A model generated the notes under the pieces. The model had not been told where the DNA came from. It saw only the letters and a program-made list of their open reading frames with translations, and made no database searches. Shown here one piece after another: positions 14,977-41,482 of a stretch of DNA of 41,543 nt. Position numbers and translations under genes: made by a program. Position 1 is the first letter of the stretch; every line of letters begins with the position of its first letter. Source of the DNA: a virus; the IMG/VR virus record IMGVR_UViG_3300042430_000129, positions 1 through 41,543 of that record; one strand, written 5' to 3'.

Positions 14977-15003
14977 CCCCCGGCTAATCCCCGGGGGTTT
15001 TTT
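14977..15003 (+). terminator. Rho-independent terminator of the + strand block
   Basis: CCCCCGG (14977-14983) and CCGGGGG (14991-14997) form a perfect 7-bp GC stem with a 7-base loop, followed by six T (14998-15003). The orientation serves + strand transcription. On the opposite strand no U-run follows the stem, so late transcripts are not obviously terminated here. The late block's last stop codon overlaps the T-run. Confidence 0.9.
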
Positions 15004-18000
15004 ATTCCCCGCGCCCTTTGCGCTCGGCTTCGTCAGCAGCTAGTCGTGACGGCAGTAAAGCATCAGCCACTAATGCGGCATTCTTTTCGTTAAGCGTGAA
15101 CCCGCGCCAAGATTCTCCCCGCTGCTTCGCCCGTTTTTCCATAGAATCCACAAGGTTGTCTACAGTAATCTCAGCAAAGGGATACTTCTTGTTGAACTCA
15201 TTACGCTTGTCTAAAATCTTTACGTAGGCATCAGCATTGTCATTCCTGTACTCCCTGTCGAGGTTGTTCAGGATTTGGTTTCTTTCATTCTTTATTTTTT
15301 GCTCTAGGCCGAGTACCTTAAAGGTAGCGTACTGTGTGTTAGCCAACAAGTCGGGCCGGAAGCCTATTGATTGGGCAATTAACTGCCCAGTGCTAAACGC
15401 ATCCTCAGATAAGATTTGCGCACCCTTATTATCCTGTGCGCCCTTACTAGCGAGCTCGTGGGCAGTGACGAAGTTACGGAACCCAGCAGGAGCCCACTTC
15501 TTAACCGCCTTAGCGTAGTCACCCTGCATTGCTGCGTCTGCACCATCCGCATAAGACAAGATCATGTTCGCCGAGGGGCCCATCTTCTCTAGCGCCATAG
15601 CGGTTGCGCTTTCCCGTAGGGTCGCGCTTTCCTTGGAGTCTCGGAACCACATGTTGTTTGCGCCAGTACGACCAGCTACATCCAACCCAGTCGCAGCATT
15701 TACGAACCCACGGTCAACTATGTCAGATAGTTTTTTACCAAAGATAGTTATTCCACCTAGCTGCTCATCCAAAAACTTAGTGCGGAAGAAAAGTTCAAAG
15801 TCCATAGACTTGAGGTCTTCGGGCAGGTCATCCCGTATTTCATCCCATGCAGCGCCGAGTAGCCCCATAACGGTGCTAAACATAGGTAGGCCAGAAGCGC
15901 CAGCAAGTACGAACGTAGTGCCTAGAGTACCAAAGAACCTTTGCGCAGCCTCACCACGAGTGCGCTTGTCCATCGGCTTAATCATCTCCCGGAAGTTCTT
16001 AATCAAAAATGTTGTTATGTGCAGGGGGTACATCATGAACTGCGTAAGCAACTTGCCGCTTAGTCCGTTCATAAAAGCAGGGCGGGCATACTCGTCGTAG
16101 TTACCTAGTGCCGCATTGGTATCTAGTACCGCTTGCTCAACCGCACGGCTAAAATTCTTGTGCTCTTTCATGTTCAGGTTAAACGAAGCCATGAACATCA
16201 TCTCTCGGGATATACGCTCCGAGGCATTCATAAGCCCGCCGAATACAAGCGCGTCCAAAGCGCTGTTAGCCAGCTTTACTTTTGGAGACTTTAACTCGTC
16301 GGTAGGGGTAGCCTTGTACTCGAATACTGATCCTGCTTGCGTAGCTGTAAACAAGTTCATAGCCGCCGCTGCGTTATATGCTCGGCGTTCTTCGGGAGAT
16401 AGTTTTGAATGTTCCATAGACGGCGCAACCCAAGACTTAGTTCCGTCGTTGTTAGTTTTGTGCATACCAAGTTGGTTCCACACCTTGAGCATTTTGCCCA
16501 TTTCCTTAGTAGCGTTGAACGCGCCATAGCGAGCTAGCACAGGCAGTCCAGTCTGGAAAACACTTAGCGGCTGCAGCAAGGCGGAGGACGCGCCGCTCAA
16601 ATAGTAAATGAACGATGCTTTATTCAACCCACCAACTATCCTAGATGCAGTAGATTGCGCTTTAGGTGCTATTGCAGCATCCACACGCTCCTTCATGTCA
16701 TTTACGAAAGGCTCAAACTCAACCCGACCCTTAATGGAGTCTTCTGCTGCCGACAGTGAAGTGCGGAGCAGTGGGGAATATTTGATACGTGCAAGTTGAG
16801 TAGCCATACGCGCAGACGCATGGGCTGTATTACGGAGTACATCAGGACGGAAACCAGCAACACCCTTACGGTGGATGAACTGTTTACGGAAACTTTGGTC
16901 GGGCATTGTTTCTAGGAAAGCCTGATAGATAGCATCCTTCAAAGAGTCGTTAGCCTCGGGGCTACCCAAGTCGGTTTTATCAATTGCGTCAAATACTTCG
17001 GAAAGCATGTTGCCTTCGCCCTGAGAGTACGCTTTCTTGCGCAGTGCTCGGATGTCATTGCCGCGCTCAAAAGCTCCATCGGAATATAGCTCAGCCAACT
17101 TATCGTCTATACGTTTTTCCCACACAGAATCTTTTTCACCATCTTTGCGCTTTAGTTGCTCTGCAGCAAATTCCCGCGCTACGTTATCGCGCTCGGTCTC
17201 AGTTTCCGCCATAAAGAACTGACGAGTTTTACCCTCACCCATTGACAACCAGAAATCACCATCACGCACCAAAGCAAAGTACGGGTTAATCTTACCGCCA
17301 CGTTCAAAGGTAGACCTAATCTTCTTCATCAAGTTTGCTTTATCCAGCGCACTCAGCTTCGAGTTGTTGACTTGGTCATCCAGCAGCTTAGACAGATACT
17401 TAGACAAGTCACCAAAATGATTCCGAATTTGCTTATACACACGTTGACCTTCAGGGCCAAGGTCTTTCCACAGCTTGTCCAACGCAGGGCTACGGTCAGA
17501 AGTGTCTATAGTTGCTGGGTCTATCTCAGCTAGAGTAGCTATAGAAGTAATTTTGTTGAGCTTCGCTGGCAACTCAGGGTCTGCTCTGTAAGCACGTTCT
17601 ACATCGTTGGAGAGCTCACTAGCACCACGCAATAGCTGGTTAGTCATGCCTGCCATTTTCTGCATGAGCGTGTACGTATTTTGTAGCTCAGGTACGTCGT
17701 TACCAACCCAGTCAACTAAAACTTGAGTCGGAAGTACTTTTACCAACGCATTGCGCTTAGCAGAATTAGTTCTTTTCCATAGGGCTTTCAGGGCGGGTAT
17801 AACCTTTTTGGGGTCCTGCATCATTTGAATAGCCGATACACCCTTAGCAGCCTCAGCCGCTTTCTTTGAAGTTTCAAACTTGAAGCTTGCTTTAGCAACC
17901 GCTTTATCAAGGTCTTTTTGGCTACGTGCGCCAGCCTCAATTTTTGCGGGTTCTTCGTCTTCTTCTATTTTGGTTGACTGCAAGACTTTGCCTTCGTTCT

Positions 18001-21000
18001 CCAGCTTAGCCTGCAACTGCATGTTGCGGGAACCTTTTGCCGATAGCAATCTGTCTGAGGCCACGATTAAGTCCATCAACGCGTTTTCTTGCTGCACAGC
18101 CATGCCGAAGAACTTAGCAATAGTGTGTACAAACTTGCTGAACGCACTTGAGTCCTCTCCAAACCCCTTAGTATTCATAAGGAACTTTTGGAATGTCTCA
18201 TCGCTCATACCATAAGCAAGGAACTCGTCTACGTCAGTAAACACACCTGACTTTTCTAGACTTGCAATGTACGCAGGTAACTTACCCGAAGCCTTGAGTT
18301 CGTTAAAACGCTGTTGAGCGTTCCCCATAATCATTATGAGGTCCATAGTGGAGGCTACTACGTCGTTAGTTTTACTAACTCCTTGGCGTATAGCAATTTT
18401 ACCGAGCCGTATCTTCTGACTAGTGGCTGCGTGCAGTAGCTCATGGAGCACAACGATATTGTTGACACCTTGCATGTCGCCGAAACTTGCGCCACGAACA
18501 TAGACTGTACGGTCGCCCGGTACATACGCACCGAAAGCAGTACTCCATTTAGCGGCCTCTTCCTTTTGGAGGGCAGTAGGGGTAGGGTCACCCTTCTCTA
18601 AGACTACGAACTTGATACCACCTAAAGCTCCGCGCAAACGCTTGGCAAGGAATTTCTGAAACACATTGCCTGTCTTCATGATGTGCGAAGCAGCCTGCAC
18701 ACCGTTGGTAAACCCAGTGAACTTAGTATCAACCTTGCTTTGACCAACTTTAGAAGCAGTTAATACCCGTGCCCCTACTCGGTAATCCTTGGGGTCAACT
18801 TCGCTATCCAGCAATTGCTGAGCATAGGCTCTAGCAGCTTTAGGCTTTTCTGCATCGTTAGCAGTTTTGTATATTTGCTGCGCCGAGTTCTTTGCACTGT
18901 TTTCGTCTGAGTTATTGTTGTAGTTGCTGAGCAGGTCGTCTAGGAGCTCAACTTCTTCCCGTGATTCTGGGTCAAGCGCTTCCCGATCAATAACAGGTGC
19001 TTCAGTAGATGTCTCGGTAGTTGTTTTAGCAGGTGCTGATTTGGCTTTTAAGGCTCTGTACAGCGCACTCAGAGCTTCAGCCCGTACTCCTTTAGGGCTA
19101 CGTTCTTTAGGCATCCGCCCATCCTTAGACCGCAAAGAGTTGAATTCAGCATCAACCTTTAGCATTAGCTGTTTAATTTCAGCCGGGTCGGTTACCTCAG
19201 ACGCAGCATCAATATCTATCCCCGTTACATTTGTGGTTGCGGGTGCTTTTTGTCTTTTCGTTTTTGTTTTGACGGTTTCAGGGGCTTTAGTGCCATCGGT
19301 TGTGGTTCCTTGTTTTGCTTTGTGTTCTGCAACTAAACGGGTAAATTCGCGGTCAGCGGTATCGAGAAGGTAGCCAAACTCTGGGTCTTCCTTAAACCCT
19401 TCCTCGCTCAACGTGTCGTATGTATTTTGCTTATACGAGTCAAACGCGGCATCAATATCCCCACCATACTCAGGATCATTTGCTTGGTCTAGAGCGGCGT
19501 TAAAGTTAGTCTTTGCTATGTTGCGGACTTCTTCACGCTTAGCGTCTTTCTCCGCTTGCTGACGGTCTATCTCATCTGCTTCTGCAAGTAGTTCTTCGTC
19601 TGTTTTTAATGCACCGGATTGTTGTCCCTGCTGTGCTTGTTCATCATTAGCTAGTTTTAATCTAAACCATGCGTCTGTTTTATTTGGAATTTCTTTGTTT
19701 AGCGCTTCCCACCTAGCGCGTTTTGGTGACTTAACATTTGGTACGCGTCCGTTTACTGACACCAACGATCTTTGTTCTTCCTCAAGTTTTTTAATTTCTT
19801 GGAGGAGCTCTTTTTCTTTTAGGCGGGTATCCGTTGGTGTTAATGCACCGGATTGTTGTCCCGCTCCCACTGCAGCCCCATCAGTAGCTGGTCCAGTAGA
19901 AACCACTGTGTCGGGCTGAGACTCTTCAATTCCTTCGGCTGGCGGTGCTGTTTCGGGTTGCTCAGCCACACTAACGCCTGCTCGATCTGCTCCACCGATA
20001 GGCTCTCCAAGTGCATCGCTTCCTTCTGTAACGGGTTCAACTCCGGGGGCTGCTGCTGGTTTTGCTGCTCGCTTCCCAGTTTTTTTGCCTGTGGGTCCGG
20101 TAACATCTAAGGCTCCTTGTTCCGCATTGAGTGCGTCGTTCTCGAGCTCAGCCTGTACTTGCTGCATAGCAGTGGCGTAAGCAGTAGCTGGGTCTACACC
20201 AGCATCAATTAGTTCTACAGCGCGTGTCTTTACTTGCGTAGGGGTAGGTACAGCTTTGCCTGCCACTGCGTCCCGCACATTAGTTGTGTTGAGCGCCGAC
20301 AAGTCTTTTATTCTCTGCTCTTCCGCAGCCACGTCGTCCTCAGCTAGGCGGATTGCGTCGTCTGGAGCTATGCCAGTTCTCTCGAGTTCCTGTGTACGCT
20401 GCGCAACTTTTTGCTCCCGGTCTTGCGAACCTGCTGGAGCCGCAGGGGGAGCTTCAGTTGCGGGTGGGGGAGCTTTGCCTTCCATCTGCGCTTTTTGCTC
20501 AGGTGTAAGCTGGGTGTCAGTCGAAATAGTGGTTGTATTGTCACCAGTCTTCTTCGTGATGTCTGTTCTCTCTGGTCCTTTGCCCAGTGCGACGTCTGTA
20601 ACACCCGTAATAACACCGCCGCCAACACCGCCTTTAAGCGTAGCGTCTAGGATTCGGCTAAAGTTTTTCTTGTTAAAGAAGTCTGCATTCTTGGCTACAA
20701 AGTTTTCAGCCGCGATGGTGGTCGTTTCTTGGGCTCCCTCTGTAAGACCCTCGATAGCAGCACCCTGAGCTGCGCCTTTACCCAAGCGTTTGTACCAAGC
20801 TGCCGCGAGTTCTTCGGGGCCAATACCTGCTTTAGATGCCTTACTCAGCAAGTTGATAGGCATGATTGCATCTAACGCACCCATGAATAGGCCCGCTGGA
20901 ATGGCGACACCTAAGTCTTGTTGGCCTGTTTTCTCGTAAATACTCTGGTACACGCTAGGTACGTTTTGCGCAGAAGAGCCAGCGACTGCACCGACCGCCT

Positions 21001-21652
21001 GTTGTTTTAAGGCTATTCTTTGCGCTGCTTTTGTACCCGCTTCCATAGCAGCGGTTTTAATCTGAGCTTCGGTTGCGCCTTTAGCCACCTGTGCCAGCAC
21101 TGCTTTTTCTGCTGCTACTTTACCCGCAGCTACCGCACCACGACCTAATACCGTGGCAGCGCCACCAGTAAACAAACTTGGGAGTAAGGATGGGATAGCC
21201 TCTCCGACAGCTTCAACTACGTAGGTACCAAAATCGCCTAAGCCTTTGATGTTCTCGTATGAACCAACTGCAGCGGGGTAGAGCTTTTCAGTCTCTTTGT
21301 TGTAGGCCACGGCATCTTTCATCCGTTTTTCAGCAGCAGCTTCGTTGCCGAGAGCATTCTGTGCCATAGCCATACCGATATTCGGTAGTGATGCAAGCCC
21401 ACGACCACCACGCATAAGGGACGGCAAAGCTGCGGAAAAACCTGTAGCCCCTTGTGTTTCTGCTGGAGCTGGTGCTGCTGTAGGCGTGGCTGTAGGTGCG
21501 GCGGTTTTTCTACCGCCATCAAGTGCAGTTACGCTCTTGCCAAATTCTTTCTCAGCCCGTGCTTGAATATCACTGGGGGTAATATCATCAGGAGCATTTT
21601 GATAGATGTGCGACGACCCATCGCCGAATGTAACGGTTACATCGCGTGCCAT
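15002..21652 (-). CDS. Giant polyvalent internal/ejection virion protein with HELLH metallopeptidase motif (2216 aa)
   Basis: Last gene of the late block, with AAGGGGT before its ATG. Features in order: an N-terminal small domain (about 1-45); hydrophobic Gly/Ala-rich segments at about 130-350 including EGLTEGAQETTT, a phrase seen in phage polyvalent proteins; a Pro/Ala/Thr-rich disordered region (about 370-620); two copies of a 23-residue unit; the zinc-peptidase motif HELLH at residues 1070-1074; long helical stretches; and hydrophobic segments near 1690 and 1890. Size, mosaic layout and position after the other internal proteins suggest a DNA-ejection protein, like T7 gp16 in role. The peptidase could open the cell envelope or process virion proteins. 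The function is inferred. Confidence 0.8.
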   Translation of the reverse strand: MARDVTVTFGDGSSHIYQNAPDDITPSDIQARAEKEFGKSVTALDGGRKTAAPTATPTAAPAPAETQGATGFSAALPSLMRGGRGLASLPNIGMAMAQNALGNEAAAEKRMKDAVAYNKETEKLYPAAVGSYENIKGLGDFGTYVVEAVGEAIPSLLPSLFTGGAATVLGRGAVAAGKVAAEKAVLAQVAKGATEAQIKTAAMEAGTKAAQRIALKQQAVGAVAGSSAQNVPSVYQSIYEKTGQQDLGVAIPAGLFMGALDAIMPINLLSKASKAGIGPEELAAAWYKRLGKGAAQGAAIEGLTEGAQETTTIAAENFVAKNADFFNKKNFSRILDATLKGGVGGGVITGVTDVALGKGPERTDITKKTGDNTTTISTDTQLTPEQKAQMEGKAPPPATEAPPAAPAGSQDREQKVAQRTQELERTGIAPDDAIRLAEDDVAAEEQRIKDLSALNTTNVRDAVAGKAVPTPTQVKTRAVELIDAGVDPATAYATAMQQVQAELENDALNAEQGALDVTGPTGKKTGKRAAKPAAAPGVEPVTEGSDALGEPIGGADRAGVSVAEQPETAPPAEGIEESQPDTVVSTGPATDGAAVGAGQQSGALTPTDTRLKEKELLQEIKKLEEEQRSLVSVNGRVPNVKSPKRARWEALNKEIPNKTDAWFRLKLANDEQAQQGQQSGALKTDEELLAEADEIDRQQAEKDAKREEVRNIAKTNFNAALDQANDPEYGGDIDAAFDSYKQNTYDTLSEEGFKEDPEFGYLLDTADREFTRLVAEHKAKQGTTTDGTKAPETVKTKTKRQKAPATTNVTGIDIDAASEVTDPAEIKQLMLKVDAEFNSLRSKDGRMPKERSPKGVRAEALSALYRALKAKSAPAKTTTETSTEAPVIDREALDPESREEVELLDDLLSNYNNNSDENSAKNSAQQIYKTANDAEKPKAARAYAQQLLDSEVDPKDYRVGARVLTASKVGQSKVDTKFTGFTNGVQAASHIMKTGNVFQKFLAKRLRGALGGIKFVVLEKGDPTPTALQKEEAAKWSTAFGAYVPGDRTVYVRGASFGDMQGVNNIVVLHELLHAATSQKIRLGKIAIRQGVSKTNDVVASTMDLIMIMGNAQQRFNELKASGKLPAYIASLEKSGVFTDVDEFLAYGMSDETFQKFLMNTKGFGEDSSAFSKFVHTIAKFFGMAVQQENALMDLIVASDRLLSAKGSRNMQLQAKLENEGKVLQSTKIEEDEEPAKIEAGARSQKDLDKAVAKASFKFETSKKAAEAAKGVSAIQMMQDPKKVIPALKALWKRTNSAKRNALVKVLPTQVLVDWVGNDVPELQNTYTLMQKMAGMTNQLLRGASELSNDVERAYRADPELPAKLNKITSIATLAEIDPATIDTSDRSPALDKLWKDLGPEGQRVYKQIRNHFGDLSKYLSKLLDDQVNNSKLSALDKANLMKKIRSTFERGGKINPYFALVRDGDFWLSMGEGKTRQFFMAETETERDNVAREFAAEQLKRKDGEKDSVWEKRIDDKLAELYSDGAFERGNDIRALRKKAYSQGEGNMLSEVFDAIDKTDLGSPEANDSLKDAIYQAFLETMPDQSFRKQFIHRKGVAGFRPDVLRNTAHASARMATQLARIKYSPLLRTSLSAAEDSIKGRVEFEPFVNDMKERVDAAIAPKAQSTASRIVGGLNKASFIYYLSGASSALLQPLSVFQTGLPVLARYGAFNATKEMGKMLKVWNQLGMHKTNNDGTKSWVAPSMEHSKLSPEERRAYNAAAAMNLFTATQAGSVFEYKATPTDELKSPKVKLANSALDALVFGGLMNASERISREMMFMASFNLNMKEHKNFSRAVEQAVLDTNAALGNYDEYARPAFMNGLSGKLLTQFMMYPLHITTFLIKNFREMIKPMDKRTRGEAAQRFFGTLGTTFVLAGASGLPMFSTVMGLLGAAWDEIRDDLPEDLKSMDFELFFRTKFLDEQLGGITIFGKKLSDIVDRGFVNAATGLDVAGRTGANNMWFRDSKESATLRESATAMALEKMGPSANMILSYADGADAAMQGDYAKAVKKWAPAGFRNFVTAHELASKGAQDNKGAQILSEDAFSTGQLIAQSIGFRPDLLANTQYATFKVLGLEQKIKNERNQILNNLDREYRNDNADAYVKILDKRNEFNKKYPFAEITVDNLVDSMEKRAKQRGESWRGFTLNEKNAALVADALLPSRLAADEAERKGRGE
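19606..19862 (-). repeat. 23-bp direct repeat pair inside the polyvalent gene
   Basis: TTAATGCACCGGATTGTTGT followed by CCC occurs at 19606-19628 and again at 19840-19862. On the coding strand both give GQQSGAL in the same frame. They border the first copy of a repeated protein unit, so they may mark a duplication or recombination junction. Confidence 0.8.
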
Positions 21653-24303: not shown

Positions 24304-25628
24304 GCTGGCAGGTTCTTATCTGCACGGCTATTTACTGCGACTTTCTTTTTGCCAATAGACTTCTTACGTCCGGCTTGAATACGGTCAAGCATCGCATATA
24401 GCTTACGGGCACCAGCATCGGTAGAGCCATTGCCCAACTCCGAAACAATACGGGCGGGCACTACGAATTCACCGTCGGCTAACCGAGCAGGGCGCTTGCC
24501 GCCAATACTTGCAGGGATGGAATCAGATACGCCGTCTCCGGGGCCACGCAGTAAGCGTCCGCCGTCAGAGTAACCGCCGAGATCACCGAGGCCACCTTTA
24601 GCAAATGCAGCCAGACCTCCATTAGCCATGTATCCGCCTGCCGCTCCGTCGGCTGCTGCTGCTGCGCCTAAACCACCAACATCAGAAAACCCGCCACCAC
24701 GCTGTGATGGATCAGAACTATGTGGGCTAGAAATCATGCCGCCACCTGTATCTGATGCTGGAGAGCTAGTAAATCCGCCGTAGCCCGGACCTTCGCTTAG
24801 TCCCCCGGAAAATCTTCCACTAGGGCTAACTGTTGATCCGTTGTACCCGCTTGTACTGCCCATGTTTTCTGCAACCACACCTTGATACGCGGTTGCGGGG
24901 TTATAACCACTGGGGAGACCCTCCATACCTACTGACCTTAACCCCTGCCCTTCAAGATTTGCTAGGCCAACTGCACTCATACGCCCGCGAGGTCCACTAT
25001 CGTAGCCGGGACCCGTACTAAAAAAGTCACCTATACCTCTACCAATTTTTGCCCCAAAACCCTGATTTGATGTATCCCGTGGATCCATAAACCCTTTGTA
25101 GGCATCAGATAAAGACGTAATCAAACCAACTCCCGGTATCAAGCCAGCGAGTGAACCCAAGTCGTTTTTGATTCGTTGACCCTGTGTAAATTTATCGGGT
25201 ACGGGAGCATATTTATCGCCGTATTCAGCATTTTCATAGGTTCGTAAAGCCTGATCTTTTGCAGTTTCCGAATCCATGAAGGCATCAATACGAGCTTTTT
25301 CCGCTGGGTCTACTTCCCGTCCACCACCACGTTCTTGATTTTGCGCTGCGGATAAACCCGCAGTTGCTGGTGCTGTAGTCCCTGCTGGAACCCAAATGTA
25401 TTCGCCTGTTGAGGAGTTATAGATGTACTTTCCGTTAGCTGGGGTTCTGTCGGCGCTAATAGAAGCAGCAGAAGCGTTATTTGCAGCAGCCATAGTTTCT
25501 AGGTCAGCAACTGCTGATACAGGTCCTCGCTTAGCGTAATTTACTTCGCGCCCATAGTCTTTGTTCATTGCGTTGTAATCTGGTACATCGGGTAGTGGGA
25601 ACCCATTAGCGTCATAGCGTTGTATCAT
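24300..25628 (-). CDS. Gly/Ser-rich virion protein with DGEFVVPA C-terminal motif (442 aa)
   Basis: ATGA overlaps on both sides. Residues 1-140 are polar and helical. A Gly-rich hydrophobic patch at 153-168 (GSLAGLIPGVGLITSL) could touch membrane. Residues 195-330 are disordered, rich in Gly and Ser. The C-terminal 110 residues contain MANGGLAAFAKGG, then GPGDGVSDSIPA, ADGEFVVPARIVS and GARKLYAMLDRIQ. I recognise this ending from many uncultured phage virion proteins, sometimes labelled tape-measure-like or internal. Its position after the nozzle and before the other core proteins suggests a role similar to T7 gp14. The exact function is unproven. Confidence 0.72.
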   Translation of the reverse strand: MIQRYDANGFPLPDVPDYNAMNKDYGREVNYAKRGPVSAVADLETMAAANNASAASISADRTPANGKYIYNSSTGEYIWVPAGTTAPATAGLSAAQNQERGGGREVDPAEKARIDAFMDSETAKDQALRTYENAEYGDKYAPVPDKFTQGQRIKNDLGSLAGLIPGVGLITSLSDAYKGFMDPRDTSNQGFGAKIGRGIGDFFSTGPGYDSGPRGRMSAVGLANLEGQGLRSVGMEGLPSGYNPATAYQGVVAENMGSTSGYNGSTVSPSGRFSGGLSEGPGYGGFTSSPASDTGGGMISSPHSSDPSQRGGGFSDVGGLGAAAAADGAAGGYMANGGLAAFAKGGLGDLGGYSDGGRLLRGPGDGVSDSIPASIGGKRPARLADGEFVVPARIVSELGNGSTDAGARKLYAMLDRIQAGRKKSIGKKKVAVNSRADKNLPA

Positions 25629-25924
25629 GTTTTTACTTTCAGTACATTACTGGCGGTTGTATCGTAGTAGACGTCGCCTACTCGAAGGTTAGCTAAATCT
25701 GCTTGAGTTGGCAAGCTCGGCAGGGCTGTCCCGGGCGTCGGGGGAACGCTCAATGCCGCAATTATATTGGCTCCGTTACGTTGTGTGGAGATATTGATTG
25801 GGCTGTTATTGTCCAATTGGTTGAAATACAACCGCAGCAGGTTGGTTAGTTGGTCTTGGTAAACCCGGTCGTATTGGTCTGGTGCACTGGGCAATCTAGG
25901 AGCAATTACGTTTTTCTGTGCCAT
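25625..25924 (-). CDS. Conserved small phage structural-region protein (99 aa)
   Basis: Its ATG overlaps the stop of the nozzle-like gene (TAATG) and its stop overlaps the next start. The front has QYDRVYQDQLTNLLRLYFNQ, a helical phrase I recognise in phage proteins of this region; the C-terminal part contains LRVGDVYYDTTASNVLKVKT, a short beta-rich segment also seen at the ends of phage fibres. Probably a small virion or assembly protein. Confidence 0.7.
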   Translation of the reverse strand: MAQKNVIAPRLPSAPDQYDRVYQDQLTNLLRLYFNQLDNNSPINISTQRNGANIIAALSVPPTPGTALPSLPTQADLANLRVGDVYYDTTASNVLKVKT

Positions 25925-28281
25925 TAACCACCCCTGCGACCGTCAGGCCGTACATCAATACGTGGCGCACCTAACTGCCACTGGGTACCTAGCGTATTTG
26001 AAGTAATCCGCATAGACATCTGCCGACCACGAACCCGGATATTGACTTGCCCAGTAAAGGTGTCTAGGTCAATTGGGTATGTTTGCGTAGCTGTTACCGG
26101 CAATGAGGCTGTAGAGCTTGTACCACCGATTGACAGAGGGTTGTTATACCCAGAACCCGAGTTCTGCAACGGTAAAAGCTGCATAGTCAGGCTAGGTGTT
26201 GTTCCATCTGTAGAGCCACGGAAGGTTAAGTCAGGCAGCATACGCCATACAAACGCCATGTTGTGCCCGTCACCAATGTCAAACTGAGATGTTGTGATAC
26301 TAGTAACAATAGGTACAAGAGTAGCTAAAGTGCCGTCGTCTACACCACTCTCGTGATAGACCAAATTATTTACATAAGTAGCCGCAACAGGGTAATTCCG
26401 CAAAGACGAATCTAACCACGCAGTACGAGCCATACTACCGTAGTACCAAATATCTTCGCCATAGTTGTAAACCACATAGCGGTCAATCGTTGTGCTATTT
26501 TCCGTGCAATAGAACCACCAGACTTCATTGAAGCCTTCATTGGTACTGGAAAATATTTGAGAGAACTGTGTACGGTTAATGTCGTCGTATACAAAGCGCA
26601 ATAAGTCGCAGCGCAGTGTTTGCACCCGACCGTCATACTTGTAGAACTTATCTTGCCCCATCCAATACGCAGTGCCGTTGGTGTACGTTGCGGCGTTAAG
26701 GCCCACAATAGAGATGTTATCGCTGAGCAGTTGTGAGCCCCATACGTATGGAGGTCCTAGGTATTGCAGAGAATAGATAGCCGCGTCAGTAAACACCAAA
26801 ATCTCTTGGCGGGCTTGTAACGCGGTTTGAATAGCTGAGCCATGCGACAGGCGTAAGCTACCCGACTGGTTTGTAATCGCAGGTGTCCAGTTTGTAACGC
26901 TTTCTTGGTCCGACCAGCGAATCAGCATGGGGTCGTACACTGTGCTAAGGTAGTCGGTAGCACCAAAACAGAATGTAAACCGGCTGGCATCTGACACCAA
27001 AATTGAGTTTTGGAAGTCTGGAACGTCGCTAGCCCCAGCCAAAGATGACACAAGTACAGCACGGGGGGAAAGCGTTTGAACCCCCGACCCAGCGGAAGTG
27101 GTGTTTATAAAAGTCCCCGCCACATAATTTGCATACGTAGTGGACAGCTTGTAAGTAGTATCTGTAACGTATGTAACGTAATACACAGTAAACGGCACAA
27201 GGGGTAACGGCAACGCCCCTGTGGTCTCAAACATTATCACGGTACCACTTGGTAGGGGTGTAGTTGTATTGCTAGTTAAAGTAACAACCGCAGGGATTGC
27301 ATTAGAGATTGTTACCGTGGTGGGAAACAATACAGTCGGCGCTGTAGTAGCGTTCCAGTAGTACAAATGCCCCAGTTTTGGGCCAAGTATGAGGTTTTCA
27401 CCAAAGTTATATTGGCTCCATACATTAAGGGTAGCCCGTGCATCGTATCCTAATCCGCCCCAGTTTCCACTACTCCATGAATTAGCGCTCCAACCAGCAG
27501 CGCTGGTAGAAATAGCCGAGCCGATGTGCAGTATGTACGCTGCATAGACTACAGAACCACCCCCTGAACCAGAGGCGTTTGCCACGGTGGTAGCAGTTAC
27601 TTGGTATGAGCTTGCTACTGGAGTAGCTGTAATAGTGGTAGAGGCGACAGTTTGTGAGGCGCTAACTGTGTAAGTACCAGTTCCTCCGGTTCCTGTACCA
27701 AAGGCAGTAATCTTAGTGCCTCCAGTAACACCCGAACCAGTAAGCACATGCCCAACAGCTAAAGCACCACCAGAAAACGCCGTAACAGTGAGGGTAAACC
27801 CGGAGATACTTCCCGTGGTAGTTACAGTTGACAGCACTGTGGCTTCGTATTCTCCGTTAAGAGTTACGTTATTAACTGCTGTAGCCCCTGAAAAAATAAC
27901 AAAATCGCCTGTTAGGGGTATGTAAGAAGCAGATACTACCGTAACCGAAGACGACCCGTTAATCGTTGTAAACGGGCTAGGTGAAAGTAGGTAGGTGCCT
28001 GATATTGGTGTAATGTCGGCGTATTGACCTGTCTGCTCAATGTAGAACTTTTTATCTGTGCCTACGCCTACAAGGTTTGCACCGGTTGTAGTAACCCAAT
28101 TCCACAAAGATCGGCAGAGACCTATAAACGTATTAGCTGAAAGACGAGTCCACCCACCAATTTTCTCCGGTGTGCCCTGACGAAAACGAACCATCTCAGA
28201 TTCATAATAGCCACCTTCGTTGGTGTAACGAGTGTTCTCGCGGTTAACACCGGGCTTTAGGACAACTTTTTGTAAGGGCAT
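25924..28281 (-). CDS. Probable tail nozzle / tail tubular protein B-like (785 aa)
   Basis: The N-terminus ([20 protein letters not shown] then [12 protein letters not shown]) is the conserved opening of large podovirus tail-tube proteins, and the length is close to T7 gp12 (794 residues). The rest is beta-rich with many Trp, Tyr and Thr, fitting a propeller-like tail nozzle. Residues 158-220 hold a Gly/Thr-rich inserted module also found in a fibre gene of this phage. The C-terminal part contains [11 protein letters not shown]. It precedes the internal virion protein genes, as in T7. Annotation elsewhere as a packaged-DNA stabilisation protein is an alternative. Confidence 0.75.
27622..27810 (-). 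repeat. Copy 1 of a shared 62-residue Gly/Thr-rich module (in nozzle-like protein)
   Basis: Residues 158-220 of the nozzle-like protein align without gaps to residues 244-308 of the 411-residue fibre protein; by hand about 43 of 62 residues agree. The centre reads [17 protein letters not shown] in both. DNA identity is much lower, so the duplication is old or the two copies came separately from a common pool. Confidence 0.85.
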
Positions 28282-30667: not shown

Positions 30668-31903
30668 TTAACGAAGTTCGTAAGCGGCGCTGTATGACTG
30701 TACGCTAAATGCGTAACTTGCTCCTAGCGGGATAATTACTGTTCCACCCCAAATATAAACACCGCCATTCCCCTGTACGCCGCCGCCATAAGGAAAATAT
30801 GCACCGCCATCTATAGATATAGACATAGCAGTATTGGCTTGGTTTGAGGCTGCTGATGTAGCCAGCATGATTGGTTTACCTGTGGTGTTGTAGTACGTTA
30901 CACCGTTTGACCGGGATACACTTTGCCAAGTTTGACCAACTCCAATTCCTTGGTTAGCCGCAGACTGCCATACCTGTACCGTGCCTGTTATGGTTGTGCT
31001 AGATACCGTCTGTGACGCGCTTACCGTGTATGTGCCTGTGCCGCCTGTGCCTGTACCTAGGGCAGTGATGGTTGTACCCCCAGTAACTCCTGTGCCAGAG
31101 ATGGTCTGACCAATGGAGAGGGTTCCAGAGGTAACCGCAGATACAGTCATTGTTGTGGTACTAATAGTCGCAGTAACCACCGCTACGGACGCAGTAGAAG
31201 TAAGTAAGTTTCCGTCAGTTCCGGGAGCTACTAAGGTTACATTTTCTGTATCCTTGCCAATAACAACGCTGTTGCGTGTAAGTGTTGCTAGCCCTGTACC
31301 GCCGTTGGCTACGGGTAAAGTTCCGGTTATGCCAGTAGTTAGTGGTAGCCCAGTAGCATTAGTTAACACGCCAGAAGCGGGTGTGCCAAGTGCAGGAGTT
31401 ACTAAGGTGGGGCTAGTAGACAGGACTACATTACCTGAACCTGTAGAAGTAGCGACTCCCGTTCCTCCGTTAATTACAGGGACAATACCCGTTAAAGATG
31501 TAAGCGACGTGGCTTCAAAATCAGAACCATTCCAAACAGCTATGCACTTGTACCCCGCTGGAATGGTAATTCCTGTAGTTGGCCCAACACCGACAAGTTT
31601 GATGCTCTGTGTGCTGGATGTCTTGTTAATAACGACGTAGGTCTTAGACTGCGCCGGGGCTGTGATTGTCCGAGTAACTGTGCCGCCTGCAGTCCACAAA
31701 ATGATTGCCTGACGCGCTTGGTTTGCTACCTGAACGGTGGTAGAAAGAGTTACATCCGCATCAGAGCTAAGGGTAGTGGTTCCTGAAACTGCATCGTCAA
31801 GCAAGGATGTAATTGCATTATTGACGGTGTCGCCCCATACACCAGACAATTCGCCTGTAACGGGGAGGGCTAAACCTAAAAGCGGTGTTGATGCAGTAGT
31901 CAT
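30668..31903 (-). CDS. Tail fibre / receptor-binding protein with GGTG repeats (411 aa)
   Basis: The N-terminus ([20 protein letters not shown]) is the standard opening of a phage fibre or structural protein in many environmental phages. Residues 140-205 have VINGGTG and VANGGTG units separated by Thr/Gly-rich stretches, typical of trimeric fibre shafts. Residues 244-308 are the module shared with the nozzle-like protein. The C-terminal 90 residues ([24 protein letters not shown]) look like a globular tip. A small assembly protein gene follows. Receptor specificity cannot be read from the sequence. Confidence 0.8.
30980..31174 (-). repeat. Copy 2 of the shared 62-residue Gly/Thr-rich module (in fibre protein)
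   Basis: Residues 244-308 of the 411-residue fibre, aligning without gaps with residues 158-220 of the nozzle-like protein. It begins with alternating Thr/Val strands and has the core [17 protein letters not shown]. This segment is common in environmental phage and bacterial surface proteins, so it is best seen as a mobile beta-rich domain. Confidence 0.85.
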
Positions 31904-31912
31904 AAGGTTCCT

Positions 31913-32881
31913 TTACTGTAAGTTGTCTATTGGTGTCCAGCCTGCGGACTCTGTTGTATCCACTGCCGTCCAGCCTGCTGTTTCAGGGTTATTGATTACT
32001 GCCCAGTTTTCAGTTTGAGCACTGTTTACCAGAGACCAGCCTGCTGTTTCTGGGTTGTTAATAAGCGCCCAGTTTGCCGTCTGGTCGTCGATAATTTTAA
32101 TCCAGCCCGCTACCTCTGTATTGTCCAACAAATTGATGTTTTCGGCAATAACGGCTTGGAACGCAGCTTGAACGGCTGGCACGTCCACAATACTGATATT
32201 TTCAATGACCGTGAAGTAAACCTCAAGGATAGCGGTCTGGGTTGCATCTACACCAAAATTCTCTGTAATATCCAAGAAGAATATCGAAATGATGGTGATG
32301 GCTTCGGTAACCGTGATGTCTTCGGTGATGCTGGCTAAAAACTGTGCAGCAATGGCTTCAGCTTCCTCTAGCGTAATGGCTTCGGAAATAGCTACGGCAA
32401 ACTGCGCCGTCATAGCCCGTATGTCGTCTACAGTGATTGGCTCTGTAATGCTCTGTAGGAACGCAGACTGCTGGGTGTTGTTGTCTTCTACGGTAAACGG
32501 TTCTGCACGGTCATTTAGCATAGCTGTGTAAACGGCTTGGCTGTCTTCGAGGACGATGTTTTCTGTCTGGGCTACGGCAAAGTCGGCAAATACTGCTTGG
32601 CTGTCCGAAAGGATTATGTCTTCTGCTATGGATTGCAGGAATGTAGATGCCTGTGTGCTGAAGTCGTCCAGCGTGATTGTCTCTGTAACGCTGCCAAAGT
32701 AATTAGTCCCTGCGTCGTTGTCAACGTCGTCTACCCCGATTGGCTCGGTGACGGATTGCAGGAAGGCAGATGCTTGGGCGCTAAAGTCGGTTAAGGCAAT
32801 GTCTTCGGAAATGGATAGAACGAATGCCGTCCCGCCAAGCGAGGCAAAGGACGATTGGGCAAACGCTGCTATTCCGAACAT
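31913..32881 (-). CDS. All-repeat fibre-region protein: 20-residue then 11-residue repeats (322 aa)
   Basis: After 24 residues the protein is built only of repeats. Residues 25-257 hold eleven full units and a partial twelfth, nearly all exactly 20 residues long, of the form (T/S/A)E-x-I-x-V-x-D followed by AxF-type residues. Residues 258-322 hold six units of 11 residues of the form AGW-x-x-I/V-N/D-N with an ET pair. No globular domain is present at either end. A 20-residue period suits a beta-solenoid or triple-stranded fibre shaft. It lies among tail fibre genes, so a shaft or decoration role is likely. TAATG coupling links it to the upstream gene. Confidence 0.75.
   Translation of the reverse strand: MFGIAAFAQSSFASLGGTAFVLSISEDIALTDFSAQASAFLQSVTEPIGVDDVDNDAGTNYFGSVTETITLDDFSTQASTFLQSIAEDIILSDSQAVFADFAVAQTENIVLEDSQAVYTAMLNDRAEPFTVEDNNTQQSAFLQSITEPITVDDIRAMTAQFAVAISEAITLEEAEAIAAQFLASITEDITVTEAITIISIFFLDITENFGVDATQTAILEVYFTVIENISIVDVPAVQAAFQAVIAENINLLDNTEVAGWIKIIDDQTANWALINNPETAGWSLVNSAQTENWAVINNPETAGWTAVDTTESAGWTPIDNLQ
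31916..32110 (-). repeat. Six tandem 11-residue (33-bp) WxxIN-type repeats
   Basis: Residues 258-322 divide exactly into five units of 11 and one of 10. Each begins AGW, ANW or ENW, and the second and fourth both read NPET near the end. Two units (ANWALINNPET and ENWAVINNPET) are almost the same, pointing to recent duplication. Confidence 0.85.
32111..32809 (-). repeat. Tandem 20-residue (60-bp) SITExITV-type repeats, about 11.5 units
   Basis: Residues 25-257. All full units are 20 residues except the second, which is 21. Typical units are SITEPITVDD, SITEDITVTE and SVTETITLDD, followed by ten more variable residues with a Phe or Leu core. The units have drifted apart, so the array is old. 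Confidence 0.85.
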
Positions 32882-33456
32882 TATTCGTACAGTATGTTAA
32901 TTGAGCCAGCATCGAAGGTATCTGTGCCGTTGACGGTTGTGATGCGAACACGGTCTAGTGTGCCTGCAAGAGTTACAGCGCCAGCTAACATGAAAACACC
33001 ATTTGAAGATGTTCTCATTAAATTTCCTGAACAAGTGTAAATGTTTCCTGATAACAAAGTAATGAAAATACTTCCATTTCTTGTATCTGCGGCAGCAACT
33101 TCATGGCATATAAAGCCAGCAGTAGAATTTGCCCCGCTTACTCCAGCAGTAGTATTGATATATCCTGCTTGAGCGACATATCCTGTTGTTGTTACAGAAC
33201 CTGACCCGATTTGAAAAAGAAAACTAGAAGTTCCGTTTGTACTTACGCCATTAAACATCACAGTAATCCGCTTCACCCACGATGGGATGCTGGTGAAGTT
33301 AATCGAAGTGCCGCTTGTAGACGCAACAGCAGTGCCAGACGTAATCACGCTTGCGCCCATTACTGGAGTCCCGTTAATTGTTGGACTGGAAAGGGTTGGG
33401 CTGGTTATTGTTTGCCCAGAGGCTATCAGTCCACCTGCTACTTGTGTTAAAGCCAT
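32881..33456 (-). CDS. Fibre-region paralog A with conserved C-terminal module (191 aa)
   Basis: One of three paralogs. The N-terminal 40 residues (LIASGQTITSPTLSSPTING) resemble a fibre attachment segment. From residue about 40 it shares with the other two SGTAVASTSGTSINFT, IPSWVKRITVMF and GVSTNGTS, and it ends RVRITTVNGTDTFDAGSINI followed by LYE. The middle part (residues 85-160) differs greatly. A conserved frame around a variable centre suggests a receptor-binding tip or virion decoration domain under diversifying selection. A TGTGGTG-type module is absent here. Function is inferred from context. Confidence 0.78.
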   Translation of the reverse strand: MALTQVAGGLIASGQTITSPTLSSPTINGTPVMGASVITSGTAVASTSGTSINFTSIPSWVKRITVMFNGVSTNGTSSFLFQIGSGSVTTTGYVAQAGYINTTAGVSGANSTAGFICHEVAAADTRNGSIFITLLSGNIYTCSGNLMRTSSNGVFMLAGAVTLAGTLDRVRITTVNGTDTFDAGSINILYE

Positions 33457-33465
33457 GTCTACCCC

Positions 33466-33990
33466 TTATTCGTACAAGATGTTTATGGAGCCAGCATCGA
33501 AGGTGTCTGTACCGTTTACAGTGGTGACGCGTACTCGGTCTAAAGTTCCACCAAGAGCAATAGAACCACCAGTATGCGATGCCCTTGCTTCGTTAGAACA
33601 CCCGACAACACCAGAACAAACCCAAGTATTTGACCCAAGAAAACTTAGTGTTAACGCACCATGTTGAATTCTAACCGCAGCATTTTCCTTACCAACACCA
33701 AATCCGGTCGTGTAATTTGCAGCCCCAGTTACAGTATCTAATATGGCTGAACTTGCTCCTAGATACCCAGAAGTTGTTACTGATCCAGCGCCAATTTGTA
33801 GTAAAAGAACGCTTGTTCCATTAGTGGAAACGCCTTGAAACACCACAGTAATTCGTTTAACCCAAGACGGGATGTCAGTGAAGTTAATAGCTGTACCTGA
33901 TGTGGAAGCTACGGCTGTGCCCGATTGAAGCAATGTTCCTGTAGCTGTTGCGTTAGAGCCGACTGTGGCTAGGTTTACTGCGAATGTCAT
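33466..33990 (-). CDS. Fibre-region paralog B with conserved C-terminal module (174 aa)
   Basis: Shares with its paralogs the front INFTDIPSWVKRITVVFQGV and the ending TVNGTDTFDAGSINILYE. Its own N-terminus is short (TFAVNLATVGSNATATGTL), and its central region (AILDTVTGAANYTTGFGVG; WVCSGVVGCSNEA) differs from those of the others. Its ATG overlaps the stop of the 457-residue fibre gene (ATGA), so it may be made in step with that fibre and could cap it. Confidence 0.78.
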   Translation of the reverse strand: MTFAVNLATVGSNATATGTLLQSGTAVASTSGTAINFTDIPSWVKRITVVFQGVSTNGTSVLLLQIGAGSVTTSGYLGASSAILDTVTGAANYTTGFGVGKENAAVRIQHGALTLSFLGSNTWVCSGVVGCSNEARASHTGGSIALGGTLDRVRVTTVNGTDTFDAGSINILYE

Positions 33991-35363: not shown

Positions 35364-35921
35364 TTACTCGTAAAGAATATTGACGCTGCCAGCATCGAAG
35401 GTGTCTGTGCCGTTGACTGTAGTGATGCGTACCATATTAAGAACACCACCAAGGGACACAGTACCGCCTAAAGAAATAGACATTGCAGTAGAAGCAGAAC
35501 TAGAAACAGTACCTGAACCTACCCAAGTATTTCCTGATAAGTTTGCAAAAGTTAAAATACCTTGGCTTACAAATGCTGCATTGTCCCAACCAATAATAAA
35601 ACCTGCTGTACTAGTTTGTGTAGAAGTTCCTGTGTAAACTCGACCAGCCGCACTTACATAACCCGTAGTTGCTGGAGTGCCTCCAGTTCCTAATTGAATT
35701 AAATAATTTGACGCACCATTAGTAGAAACTCCACTAAACATCACGGTAATCCGCTTAACCCAAGACGGGATGTCGGTAAAGTTAATGCTAGTACCCGATG
35801 TGGAAGCTACGGCTGTGCCAGATGTAAGAACACCCACACCTGTTGGTGTGCCAGATGTCACAGGGCTGGTTAAAGTTATCGGTGCGTTTAAACCCGCCTG
35901 ACTTATTGTGCTGATTGGCAT
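35364..35921 (-). CDS. Fibre-region paralog C with conserved C-terminal module (185 aa)
   Basis: The N-terminus (ISQAGLNAPITLTSPVTSGT) resembles that of paralog A. It then has SGTAVASTSGTSINFTDIPS and VKRITVMFSGVSTNG, a variable centre (residues 85-155), and the shared VNGTDTFDAGSVNILYE ending. It lies between the oxygenase gene and the 457-residue fibre gene. Like the others it has no enzyme motif and is Thr/Ser/Gly-rich. Confidence 0.78.
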   Translation of the reverse strand: MPISTISQAGLNAPITLTSPVTSGTPTGVGVLTSGTAVASTSGTSINFTDIPSWVKRITVMFSGVSTNGASNYLIQLGTGGTPATTGYVSAAGRVYTGTSTQTSTAGFIIGWDNAAFVSQGILTFANLSGNTWVGSGTVSSSASTAMSISLGGTVSLGGVLNMVRITTVNGTDTFDAGSVNILYE

Positions 35922-35930
35922 AGGTGTTCC

Positions 35931-36431
35931 TTATGTTGCACTTATTTTAGGTGCTAGCTTGCCGTATGCAGATTCTGCAATGTGTTTTTCAATCAAAGAT
36001 GCCATAGATACGACAACACGGTCTCCATTTTTTATAGGTGTAGACGAATGCTCCTCAATACTGGAAAAGCATATCCAAACATCCCCCTCTTTCACGTCAA
36101 GTTCTACTCCATCCAACACAGGTTTTCCGCCGAACTTAGGCATTTCTATGGCTACGTTGCACCGAACATGGTGAAACCCTACTGGCGCTGGGTCGGTATG
36201 CACATGCACATGCGCCCCCATTAAGTAGTTATTCCCAATAAAATGCCCCAACTCAGGCTCTTCCATTTCCCAAACAAGACCAAAACGGGAAAACAACTCA
36301 TCAACAATGCTTTGGTCTATTTTTAACTTTGACGCAAAACGTCTCCCATATCCATTCGGGCGCATTAAGTTACCCGTTGCCAACGACCCCAACTGTTTGG
36401 CTATATCAGGGGCGTGTATAACCCGTTGCAT
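35931..36431 (-). CDS. Putative 2OG-Fe(II) oxygenase-like protein (166 aa)
   Basis: The central region fits a double-stranded beta-helix dioxygenase. The likely iron site is HTD (H78, D80) with a distal H128 in EEHSSTPIKNGDRVVVS, ten residues before R138, which would bind 2-oxoglutarate. The strand GDVWICFSSIEEH precedes the distal histidine as expected. Phages, especially aquatic ones, often carry such enzymes near tail genes; known roles include protein hydroxylation and nucleic acid repair. It follows the cupin gene by 2 bases on the - strand, within the fibre genes. Whether it is active is not shown. Confidence 0.65.
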   Translation of the reverse strand: MQRVIHAPDIAKQLGSLATGNLMRPNGYGRRFASKLKIDQSIVDELFSRFGLVWEMEEPELGHFIGNNYLMGAHVHVHTDPAPVGFHHVRCNVAIEMPKFGGKPVLDGVELDVKEGDVWICFSSIEEHSSTPIKNGDRVVVSMASLIEKHIAESAYGKLAPKISAT

Positions 36432-36433
36432 TT

Positions 36434-36796
36434 TTACGCACTAACGGTAGGTTTAGCAAAGGACAGCGGGTTCACGCCTTTTGGGATGGTGTCTGGGTCA
36501 ATGATGTCTTCAACTTTATCCCCAAAACGTAGCGCATGTATGCAATAGGCTACGGTGTCTGGTTCCAACGCCACCAGCTTATGTTCCTTTTCCGCCTTAA
36601 TGTAGATCATGTGCGGGGCTGAAAACTGCGTAACTACGCCATCTACCTCAAGTTCCACAGAGCCGGAAGCCAAAAGCGTCAGATGGTCAAATGGGTGTGT
36701 ATGCCCAAGCTCAATGTCCCCTGCAGCTTTGAAGTGCATCATCCGGCAAAACAAGTTTGCTACGCAGCTTATTGCTATATGTGGGGGTAAGTTCAT
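36434..36796 (-). CDS. Cupin-domain protein (120 aa)
   Basis: A single small cupin barrel. Motif 1 is GHTHPFDHLTLLASG with metal-binding candidates H32, H34 and H38. Motif 2 is APHMIYIKAEKEHKLVAL with H72. These four histidines fit a mononuclear metal site, with His replacing the usual Glu of motif 1. The N-terminus (CVANLFCRMMHFK) and the 30-residue C-terminal tail lie outside the barrel. It couples by ATGA overlap to the upstream 108-residue gene and precedes the oxygenase-like gene. Possible roles are sugar isomerisation or a structural tail domain. Confidence 0.78.
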   Translation of the reverse strand: MNLPPHIAISCVANLFCRMMHFKAAGDIELGHTHPFDHLTLLASGSVELEVDGVVTQFSAPHMIYIKAEKEHKLVALEPDTVAYCIHALRFGDKVEDIIDPDTIPKGVNPLSFAKPTVSA

Positions 36797-40388: not shown

Positions 40389-40802
40389 CTAATTAGAACT
40401 GCGAATTAACGCAGAAGTGGCTGTATTGGCTGGCATTGTGATGGTGAACGTACCGGTAGATGTCTTATCTGACCCAAAATCCAACACCGCAATGGACTTA
40501 TTTCCTTGGCTGGCATTGTAAATCAAGGCACACCGTGCCGTCACTGATGTTGACCATGAAACATTTGCAAAATTAACGTACACCGTATAGCCAGAAGAGT
40601 TAAGCGTTACCCCTGTCATAACGGCTCCACCCGCTGTGTAACCTGACGCTACAACCTCATTTGAGGTGCTATACACCGTGGTATCTTCATCAAGACTAGC
40701 ATCTGCCGTGTACAGGGCGATCTTGATTGTGTCCGTCAGCAGGTTATGCACCGCTTGGTACACCTCTGCTTTAAATGAAGTAGTCTGTGTTTGGACGATC
40801 AT
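40389..40802 (-). CDS. Virion structural protein (137 aa)
   Basis: Beta-rich protein with FKAEVYQAVHNLL, DTIKIALYTADASLDEDT and ASGYTAGGAVMTG, an arrangement I recognise in small phage structural proteins just downstream of the adaptor gene. Its ATG overlaps the adaptor stop (TAATG). A role in the head-tail region or virion surface is likely but not assigned. Confidence 0.72.
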   Translation of the reverse strand: MIVQTQTTSFKAEVYQAVHNLLTDTIKIALYTADASLDEDTTVYSTSNEVVASGYTAGGAVMTGVTLNSSGYTVYVNFANVSWSTSVTARCALIYNASQGNKSIAVLDFGSDKTSTGTFTITMPANTATSALIRSSN

Positions 40803-41482
40803 TACATGACCCCATTATTCTGGGGTAAAGGCGCAGCGCGGTACTGACCACTACGATACGCATCGCTACGCTCAAGGCCATCACCCAGACGTTTAGCGAG
40901 CATTAACGCTTCCTTGTACTTGCCATCGTACAGTGCAACCATGTCGGCTTCGCCCTTCATGTAGGTATACGCCTCTACCAACGCGCCGTAAAGCAGCACA
41001 GAGTCAAAGTTGTCACCTAACCAAGTGGTTAACGCAGTGGTAATGGACTCTGGGTAGTAGTAATAGTGAAGCTCTGCAGAATACGTAGCATCCGGCGTTG
41101 GGCCAAGAATGAACGAAAGCTCATTACTTATTGTGGAGCTAGTAACTGTTGGGCCAAACAAGGCGTAGTACTTAGGGGTAGCTGTGTCAGTTGGCTGTGG
41201 ATACGCTTCACGAATGAAGTTGACGTCCTTGTTAAGTAAAAACGTGTACACCCCAGCCGCATCAATTACCGCTAGAGAATAAGACGAAAGGTAGTCGTTG
41301 GGGCACGACAGGTACTTATTGTTAACTGTAACTGACCCCGTCACGTTTTTCCGCAACGAGGGGAACTGAACGGTGTTGTAAACGCGCTGCTCTGCCTGCT
41401 GAATGAACGTATTCATGTCAGTAGTGCTGAACGTGTTCTCCGTGTAATCGGAGATTGCAGTGACTAGAGCAGCGTAGTTCAT
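40802..41482 (-). CDS. Head-tail adaptor protein, T7 gp11 / phage adaptor type (226 aa)
   Basis: Largely helical, with an N-terminal ALVTAISDYTENTFSTTDM and FIQQAEQRVYNTVQFPSLRK that fit the conserved start of phage adaptor proteins (gp11- or gp4-like). A central beta-insertion is followed by YYYYPESITTALTTWLGDNF and a C-terminal helical ALVEAYTYMKGEADMVALY. These proteins form a ring between portal and tail nozzle. Its position as the first complete gene of the visible late block supports this, since portal and capsid genes normally lie just upstream, here beyond the window. Confidence 0.82.
   Translation of the reverse strand: MNYAALVTAISDYTENTFSTTDMNTFIQQAEQRVYNTVQFPSLRKNVTGSVTVNNKYLSCPNDYLSSYSLAVIDAAGVYTFLLNKDVNFIREAYPQPTDTATPKYYALFGPTVTSSTISNELSFILGPTPDATYSAELHYYYYPESITTALTTWLGDNFDSVLLYGALVEAYTYMKGEADMVALYDGKYKEALMLAKRLGDGLERSDAYRSGQYRAAPLPQNNGVM

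Follow-up and report, generated by a model that had tools for sequence, protein, structure and literature searches.

A three-part repeat protein with exchangeable cores in the tail-fibre block of environmental short-tailed phages

What does a phage gain from a protein made almost entirely of short repeats? The gene raising this question lies on the minus strand at 31913-32881 of a freshwater-type phage record analysed here (IMGVR_UViG_3300042430_000129, 41,543 nucleotides; hereafter the window). A sequence-only reading had described its product as a two-part array of 20-residue and then 11-residue repeats and proposed a solenoid or fibre shaft. We compared the protein, its relatives and their gene neighbourhoods, and set the outcome against known tail systems.

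Three modules in one repeat protein

The gene and its parts are as follows.

31913-32881, minus strand: MFG-family repeat protein, 322 residues, formed by an N-terminal peptide, 12 Glu-centred 20-residue units and six Trp units of 11 residues
32831-32881, minus strand: conserved N-terminal peptide MFGIAAFAQSSFASLGG, codons 1-17, a proposed virion anchor; M1, F2, G3, F7 and F12 are invariant among 81 aligned relatives
32111-32830, minus strand: twelve 20-residue units (one of 21), residues 18-257, consensus xAxFxxS(I/V)TEN(I)T(L)AD
31916-32110, minus strand: six 11-residue Trp units, residues 258-322, consensus WxxI(N/D)DxQTxG

The open reading frame is real and its two repeat classes are confirmed. 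Residues 1-257 match themselves at a lag of 20 with 27% identity (z = 10.7; 2,000 shuffles reach at most 17.5% at any lag), and the Trp tail does so at a lag of 22 with 48% identity (z = 10.8 against shuffles). The Glu that defines each unit occupies positions 26, 46, 67, 87, 107, 127, 147, 167, 187, 207, 227 and 247, spaced by 20 throughout with a single exception of 21. The 20-residue period first read from the sequence therefore stands, with its count amended from eleven full units and one partial from residue 25 to twelve units (one 21 long) from approximately residue 18. The changeover was correctly placed at an AGW (residue 258), where the Trp units start, with Trp at 260, 271, 282, 293, 304 and 315 and every gap 11. 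Six 11-residue units over 258-322 are likewise retained; the two-part description gives way to a three-part architecture, with the N-terminal peptide as a conserved module in its own right. The remark that there is no globular start beyond 24 residues overlooks that conservation across the family is highest in the first 17, which proteins with very different interiors have in common.

Units of the window copy share a mean identity of 30% in protein and 45% in DNA, and comparing them at the DNA level found no recent duplication. Against four close relatives, dN/dS is approximately 0.2 for the gene including its repeat region, and the first 24 residues carry zero amino-acid changes; the gene is under purifying selection. 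Low identity between units together with this dN/dS indicates that the array is old and maintained by selection.

Across relatives, the 17-residue N-terminal peptide is nearly fixed as MFGI(A/S)AFA(Q/E)xPFASLAG, and the 20-residue unit follows the consensus xAxFxxSITENITLADxxTI. Among 81 diverse relatives the unit Glu is invariant at 9 of 12 unit positions and at least 90% conserved at the other three, and the first Trp is invariant. An Asp lies six residues past the Glu in 82% of 1,145 units. Proline falls mainly at two sites, directly after the Glu (10.7%) and two residues past the Asp (12.0%), a pattern that suggests two turns per unit. Neighbouring Trp residues of the C-terminal array are exactly 11 apart in 386 of 405 pairs.

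Between the same N-terminal peptide and Trp array, 156 proteins carry 20-residue Glu units, 58 carry LTGVxAxGxVGTV repeats, and rarer types also occur; because the ends are kept while the core differs, the core is exchangeable. A minimal form of 69 residues (locus L236) retains the peptide, about one unit and the Trp array. Elsewhere (L208:1398-2540) the MFG peptide precedes TSTSTATLIK-type repeats of approximately 18 residues and a different C terminus without the Trp array. Four loci (L192, L226, L228 and L256) encode coiled-coil-like proteins of approximately 120 residues with the MFG peptide, and in L226, L228 and L256 these genes are located between portal-side and scaffold/capsid genes. 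As it occurs on coiled-coil proteins too, the peptide is a module found on at least two unrelated bodies.

Structure prediction was less informative. AlphaFold2 monomer runs gave a pLDDT of 41.5 with weak helices (29 aligned relatives) and of 44.0 with coil (81 aligned relatives, all of the 12-unit class), and these values mean that no predicted fold backs a rod. The hydrophobic moment of the repeat is similar at 100 and at 160-180 degrees, which leaves helix and strand unseparated, and Chou-Fasman averages favour neither. Taken literally, this outcome counts against the regular solenoid of the sequence-only reading, which whole-unit length changes and the location of the gene (below) support in part. 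The failure of a monomer prediction says little if the protein is an obligate oligomer.

Length changes in whole units

We grouped relatives into clusters at 60% identity of the protein ends and used the position of the first Trp as a measure of core length. These positions gather at 99, 140, 180, 200, 239, 260, 280, 319, 340 and 362, and for 75 of 78 clusters (28 of 29 outside the 12-unit class) the offset from a multiple of 20 is at most two residues. Comparing unit counts across relatives thus bears out the earlier suggestion that unit number sets length. Counts span 4 to 17, with 12 dominant and 4, 6, 8, 9, 11, 13, 15, 16 and 17 also found. Two recent expansions are visible as duplicated DNA blocks, one of exactly two units (L072, 85% over 120 bp) and one of exactly four (L132, 80% over 240 bp). 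A superperiod of four units (80 residues), drawn from the first 80 proteins (8, 12 and 16 units), was dropped on finding 6, 9, 11, 13, 15 and 17 in the larger set.

The family and its distribution

Scanning IMG/VR with the window protein gives 60 loci, and a profile scan finds at least 303 stretches that encode relatives; not all of these loci were chosen by the N-terminal peptide. Four IMG/VR pattern scans with the peptide bring the total set to 232 distinct complete proteins bearing it, peptide conservation in the pattern-selected subset being partly by construction. No relative turned up in either of two scans across 84,980 species genomes of bacteria and archaea, and direct tblastn of the window protein and a relative (L033) against 50,697 phage records gave no match. 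These absences indicate that the family is known from uncultivated viruses only, save for remote relatives in a small number of records of named phages (DSL-LC04 and Roseobacter phages CRP-345 and CRP-901); DSL-LC04 was itself assembled from a metagenome (PMC10611076).

The window protein stays short of curated cut-offs (best Pfam E = 0.34, best PHROG E = 0.067), is matched by nothing in NCBIfam or PADLOC, and has no match beyond chance among PDB chains by phmmer and profile search. Chance hits from PDB, Pfam and PHROG (SSE1, SlrP, MukB hinge, pentapeptide and others) are low-complexity matches and were discarded. None of these resources describes the family, in line with the earlier statement that no function had been assigned, and a search of open-licence papers found no publication on it. 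The MFG family is abundant in environmental short-tailed phages and undescribed.

Genomic position and the downstream partner

Three neighbouring genes place the repeat protein within the tail region.

40802-41482, minus strand: tail adaptor protein, SU10 type (PF24175 SU10_adaptor, E = 1.6e-21)
30668-31903, minus strand: fibre-like protein, 411 residues, the next gene downstream, with an N-terminal WG(D/S)TxN domain; usual neighbour of the 20-residue class
25924-28281, minus strand: tail nozzle protein (phrog_3287, E = 1.2e-60; PDB nozzle gp16 8zkk, E = 2.6e-4; 9nwi_Y, E = 5.4e-12)

Detected adaptor homologues lie upstream of the repeat gene in 106 of 106 loci and nozzle homologues downstream in 58 of 58, all on the same strand, and most loci without either are too short to extend that far. 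Most commonly, one or two small genes separate the adaptor from the repeat gene, after which come a fibre-like gene, the lysis genes and the nozzle. Beyond the nozzle gene the window has a small separate gene (25625-25924), as do 20 related loci. A fibre-like gene family follows the repeat gene immediately in 208 of 253 loci.

That downstream gene is of either the WGxT or the DRVK fibre family, and the choice tracks the core: WGxT to DRVK counts are 125:7 beside 20-residue cores and 3:47 beside LTGV cores. Taking one locus per cluster, which reduces relatedness without removing it, the counts are 66:5 versus 1:23 (p ~3e-16). The WG(D/S)TxN domain of the window's fibre-like protein matches the gene adjoining the DSL-LC04 relative, and in that phage the layout recurs independently, with two genes between the adaptor and a protein with LTGV repeats and a Trp array, followed by a WGxT fibre. 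Its LTGV core beside a WGxT fibre means that core class alone does not set the partner. Planktothrix phage Pag-Yong1 also encodes a WGxT fibre, there with an S74 chaperone (PF13884); its gene comes immediately after the SU10_adaptor gene, with no MFG-type gene between them. The downstream partner is therefore very likely a real fibre, but one able to dock without the MFG protein; the idea that the latter is an obligatory connector for WGxT fibres is weakened. The Pag-Yong1 adaptor itself (OL906435.1, UMO75991.1; L362:4341-4997) is annotated as 'lysozyme' and is of SU10 type (PF24175, E = 1.3e-19).

Other features of the window concern the same region. Three paralogues on the minus strand (32881-33456, 33466-33990 and 35364-35921) have a common C-terminal domain (TSGTAVASTSGTSINFTDIPSWVKRITV...VNGTDTFDAGSINILYE), a local expansion within the fibre block. 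A phrog_21413 domain is inserted in both the nozzle protein (residues 151-245) and the fibre protein (residues 237-307). Two minus-strand genes inside the block (35931-36431 and 36434-36796) encode a cupin and a protein that is possibly hydroxylase-like, and DSL-LC04 has a 2OG-Fe(II) oxygenase at a comparable place. Farther along, 15002-21652 (minus strand) encodes a 2,216-residue protein with an LPD39 domain, probably a large ejected or polyvalent protein.

Discussion

Our preferred reading, held with moderate confidence, is that the MFG repeat protein is a structural part of the virion, a rod in the tail-fibre apparatus of a phage with a short tail of the SU10/T7-like adaptor-nozzle type, anchored by its N terminus. 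We infer its virion presence, oligomerization, fold and the partners of both ends; gene order alone is no proof that it is assembled there. The 17-residue peptide would most likely anchor the protein to the virion, with the adaptor collar as the probable site, although the four coiled-coil proteins bearing it near portal and capsid genes mean that it may dock elsewhere than at the adaptor. The 20-residue units may stack into a rod, likely trimeric by analogy with other fibres, in which the count of whole units fixes the length. At its C-terminal end the conserved Trp array would act as a cap or as a joint, possibly with the fibre that the following gene encodes. More tentatively, as a possibility rated somewhat short of even, these proteins may represent a new modular phage fibre, in which one anchor peptide and one Trp-array joint hold interchangeable cores with undescribed folds, each matched to its own downstream fibre class and tuned in length by whole units.

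The coiled-coil proteins also give substance to a different placement, as a decoration of head or neck or another peripheral, non-fibre virion protein, in that other viruses encode the peptide between portal and capsid genes. Repeat-bearing members with a detectable adaptor or nozzle homologue, however, sit between these genes and adjoin fibre genes, and we consider this placement unlikely. A protein outside the virion, such as an assembly chaperone, or a disordered low-complexity linker with little structure, would account for the lack of a confident AlphaFold2 model. Disordered linkers, however, normally fail to hold such strict repeat register, and here the periods of 20 and 11 are strict, the repeat region shares the low dN/dS, and the Glu and first-Trp conservation across 81 relatives runs through the array; such a role is equally improbable. 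A role like that of P22 gp26, as a tail needle or plug whose peptide closes the tail channel and whose variable rod projects on the tail axis, has the general needle plan of a short conserved N-terminal peptide and a variable-length shaft in its favour, but is very unlikely, since the SU10 needle gene gp18 comes after the nozzle gene gp17 (PMC9509320), the MFG gene precedes the nozzle in 58 of 58 loci, and another small gene lies after the nozzle in the window and 20 related loci.

The family counts hundreds of loci in IMG/VR and almost none among named phage records. With anything from 4 to 17 units set between constant ends, its members make up a natural ruler series in which the effect of shaft length on adsorption can be tested, and its core swaps form a second natural series that would separate the roles of anchor, shaft and cap. 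The N-terminal peptide and 11-residue Trp array can serve as sequence tags for annotating fibre blocks in phage metagenomes.

Among known systems, SU10 (Kuravirus) has the same layout: its genes for fibre gp12/gp13 and short fibre gp16 come after adaptor gp11 and ahead of nozzle gp17, and the fibres attach to the adaptor through their N termini (PMC9509320). The MFG protein resembles the proximal and distal long tail fibre proteins gp12/gp13 in being encoded between adaptor and nozzle, and in the proposed use of an N-terminal segment that in SU10 binds the virion (PMC9509320). It differs from gp12, which has 786 residues and is coiled-coil past its N terminus, and phmmer and profile searches of PDB chains found no homology of the window protein to gp12/gp13. 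Hypothetical protein WJZ48131.1 of DSL-LC04 combines LTGV repeats with a Trp array at its C terminus, and the gene after it encodes a WGxT fibre; the protein carries a GWGxGxWG motif and lacks the MFG peptide and 20-residue Glu units. Roseobacter phage CRP-901 has an LTGV-like protein gene directly after its tail adaptor gene, although CRP-345 and CRP-901 lack both the MFG peptide and the Glu units and match weakly (E 2e-4 to 0.1). Fibre shafts of adenovirus type (triple beta-spiral), like other shafts in viruses, vary in length by whole repeats, and so does the MFG protein as a proposed rod; the adenovirus repeat has approximately 15 residues, whereas that of MFG has 20, with an invariant Glu and near-invariant Asp. 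Claiming no membership of these groups, we propose by analogy that the MFG protein works like known tail fibre shafts.
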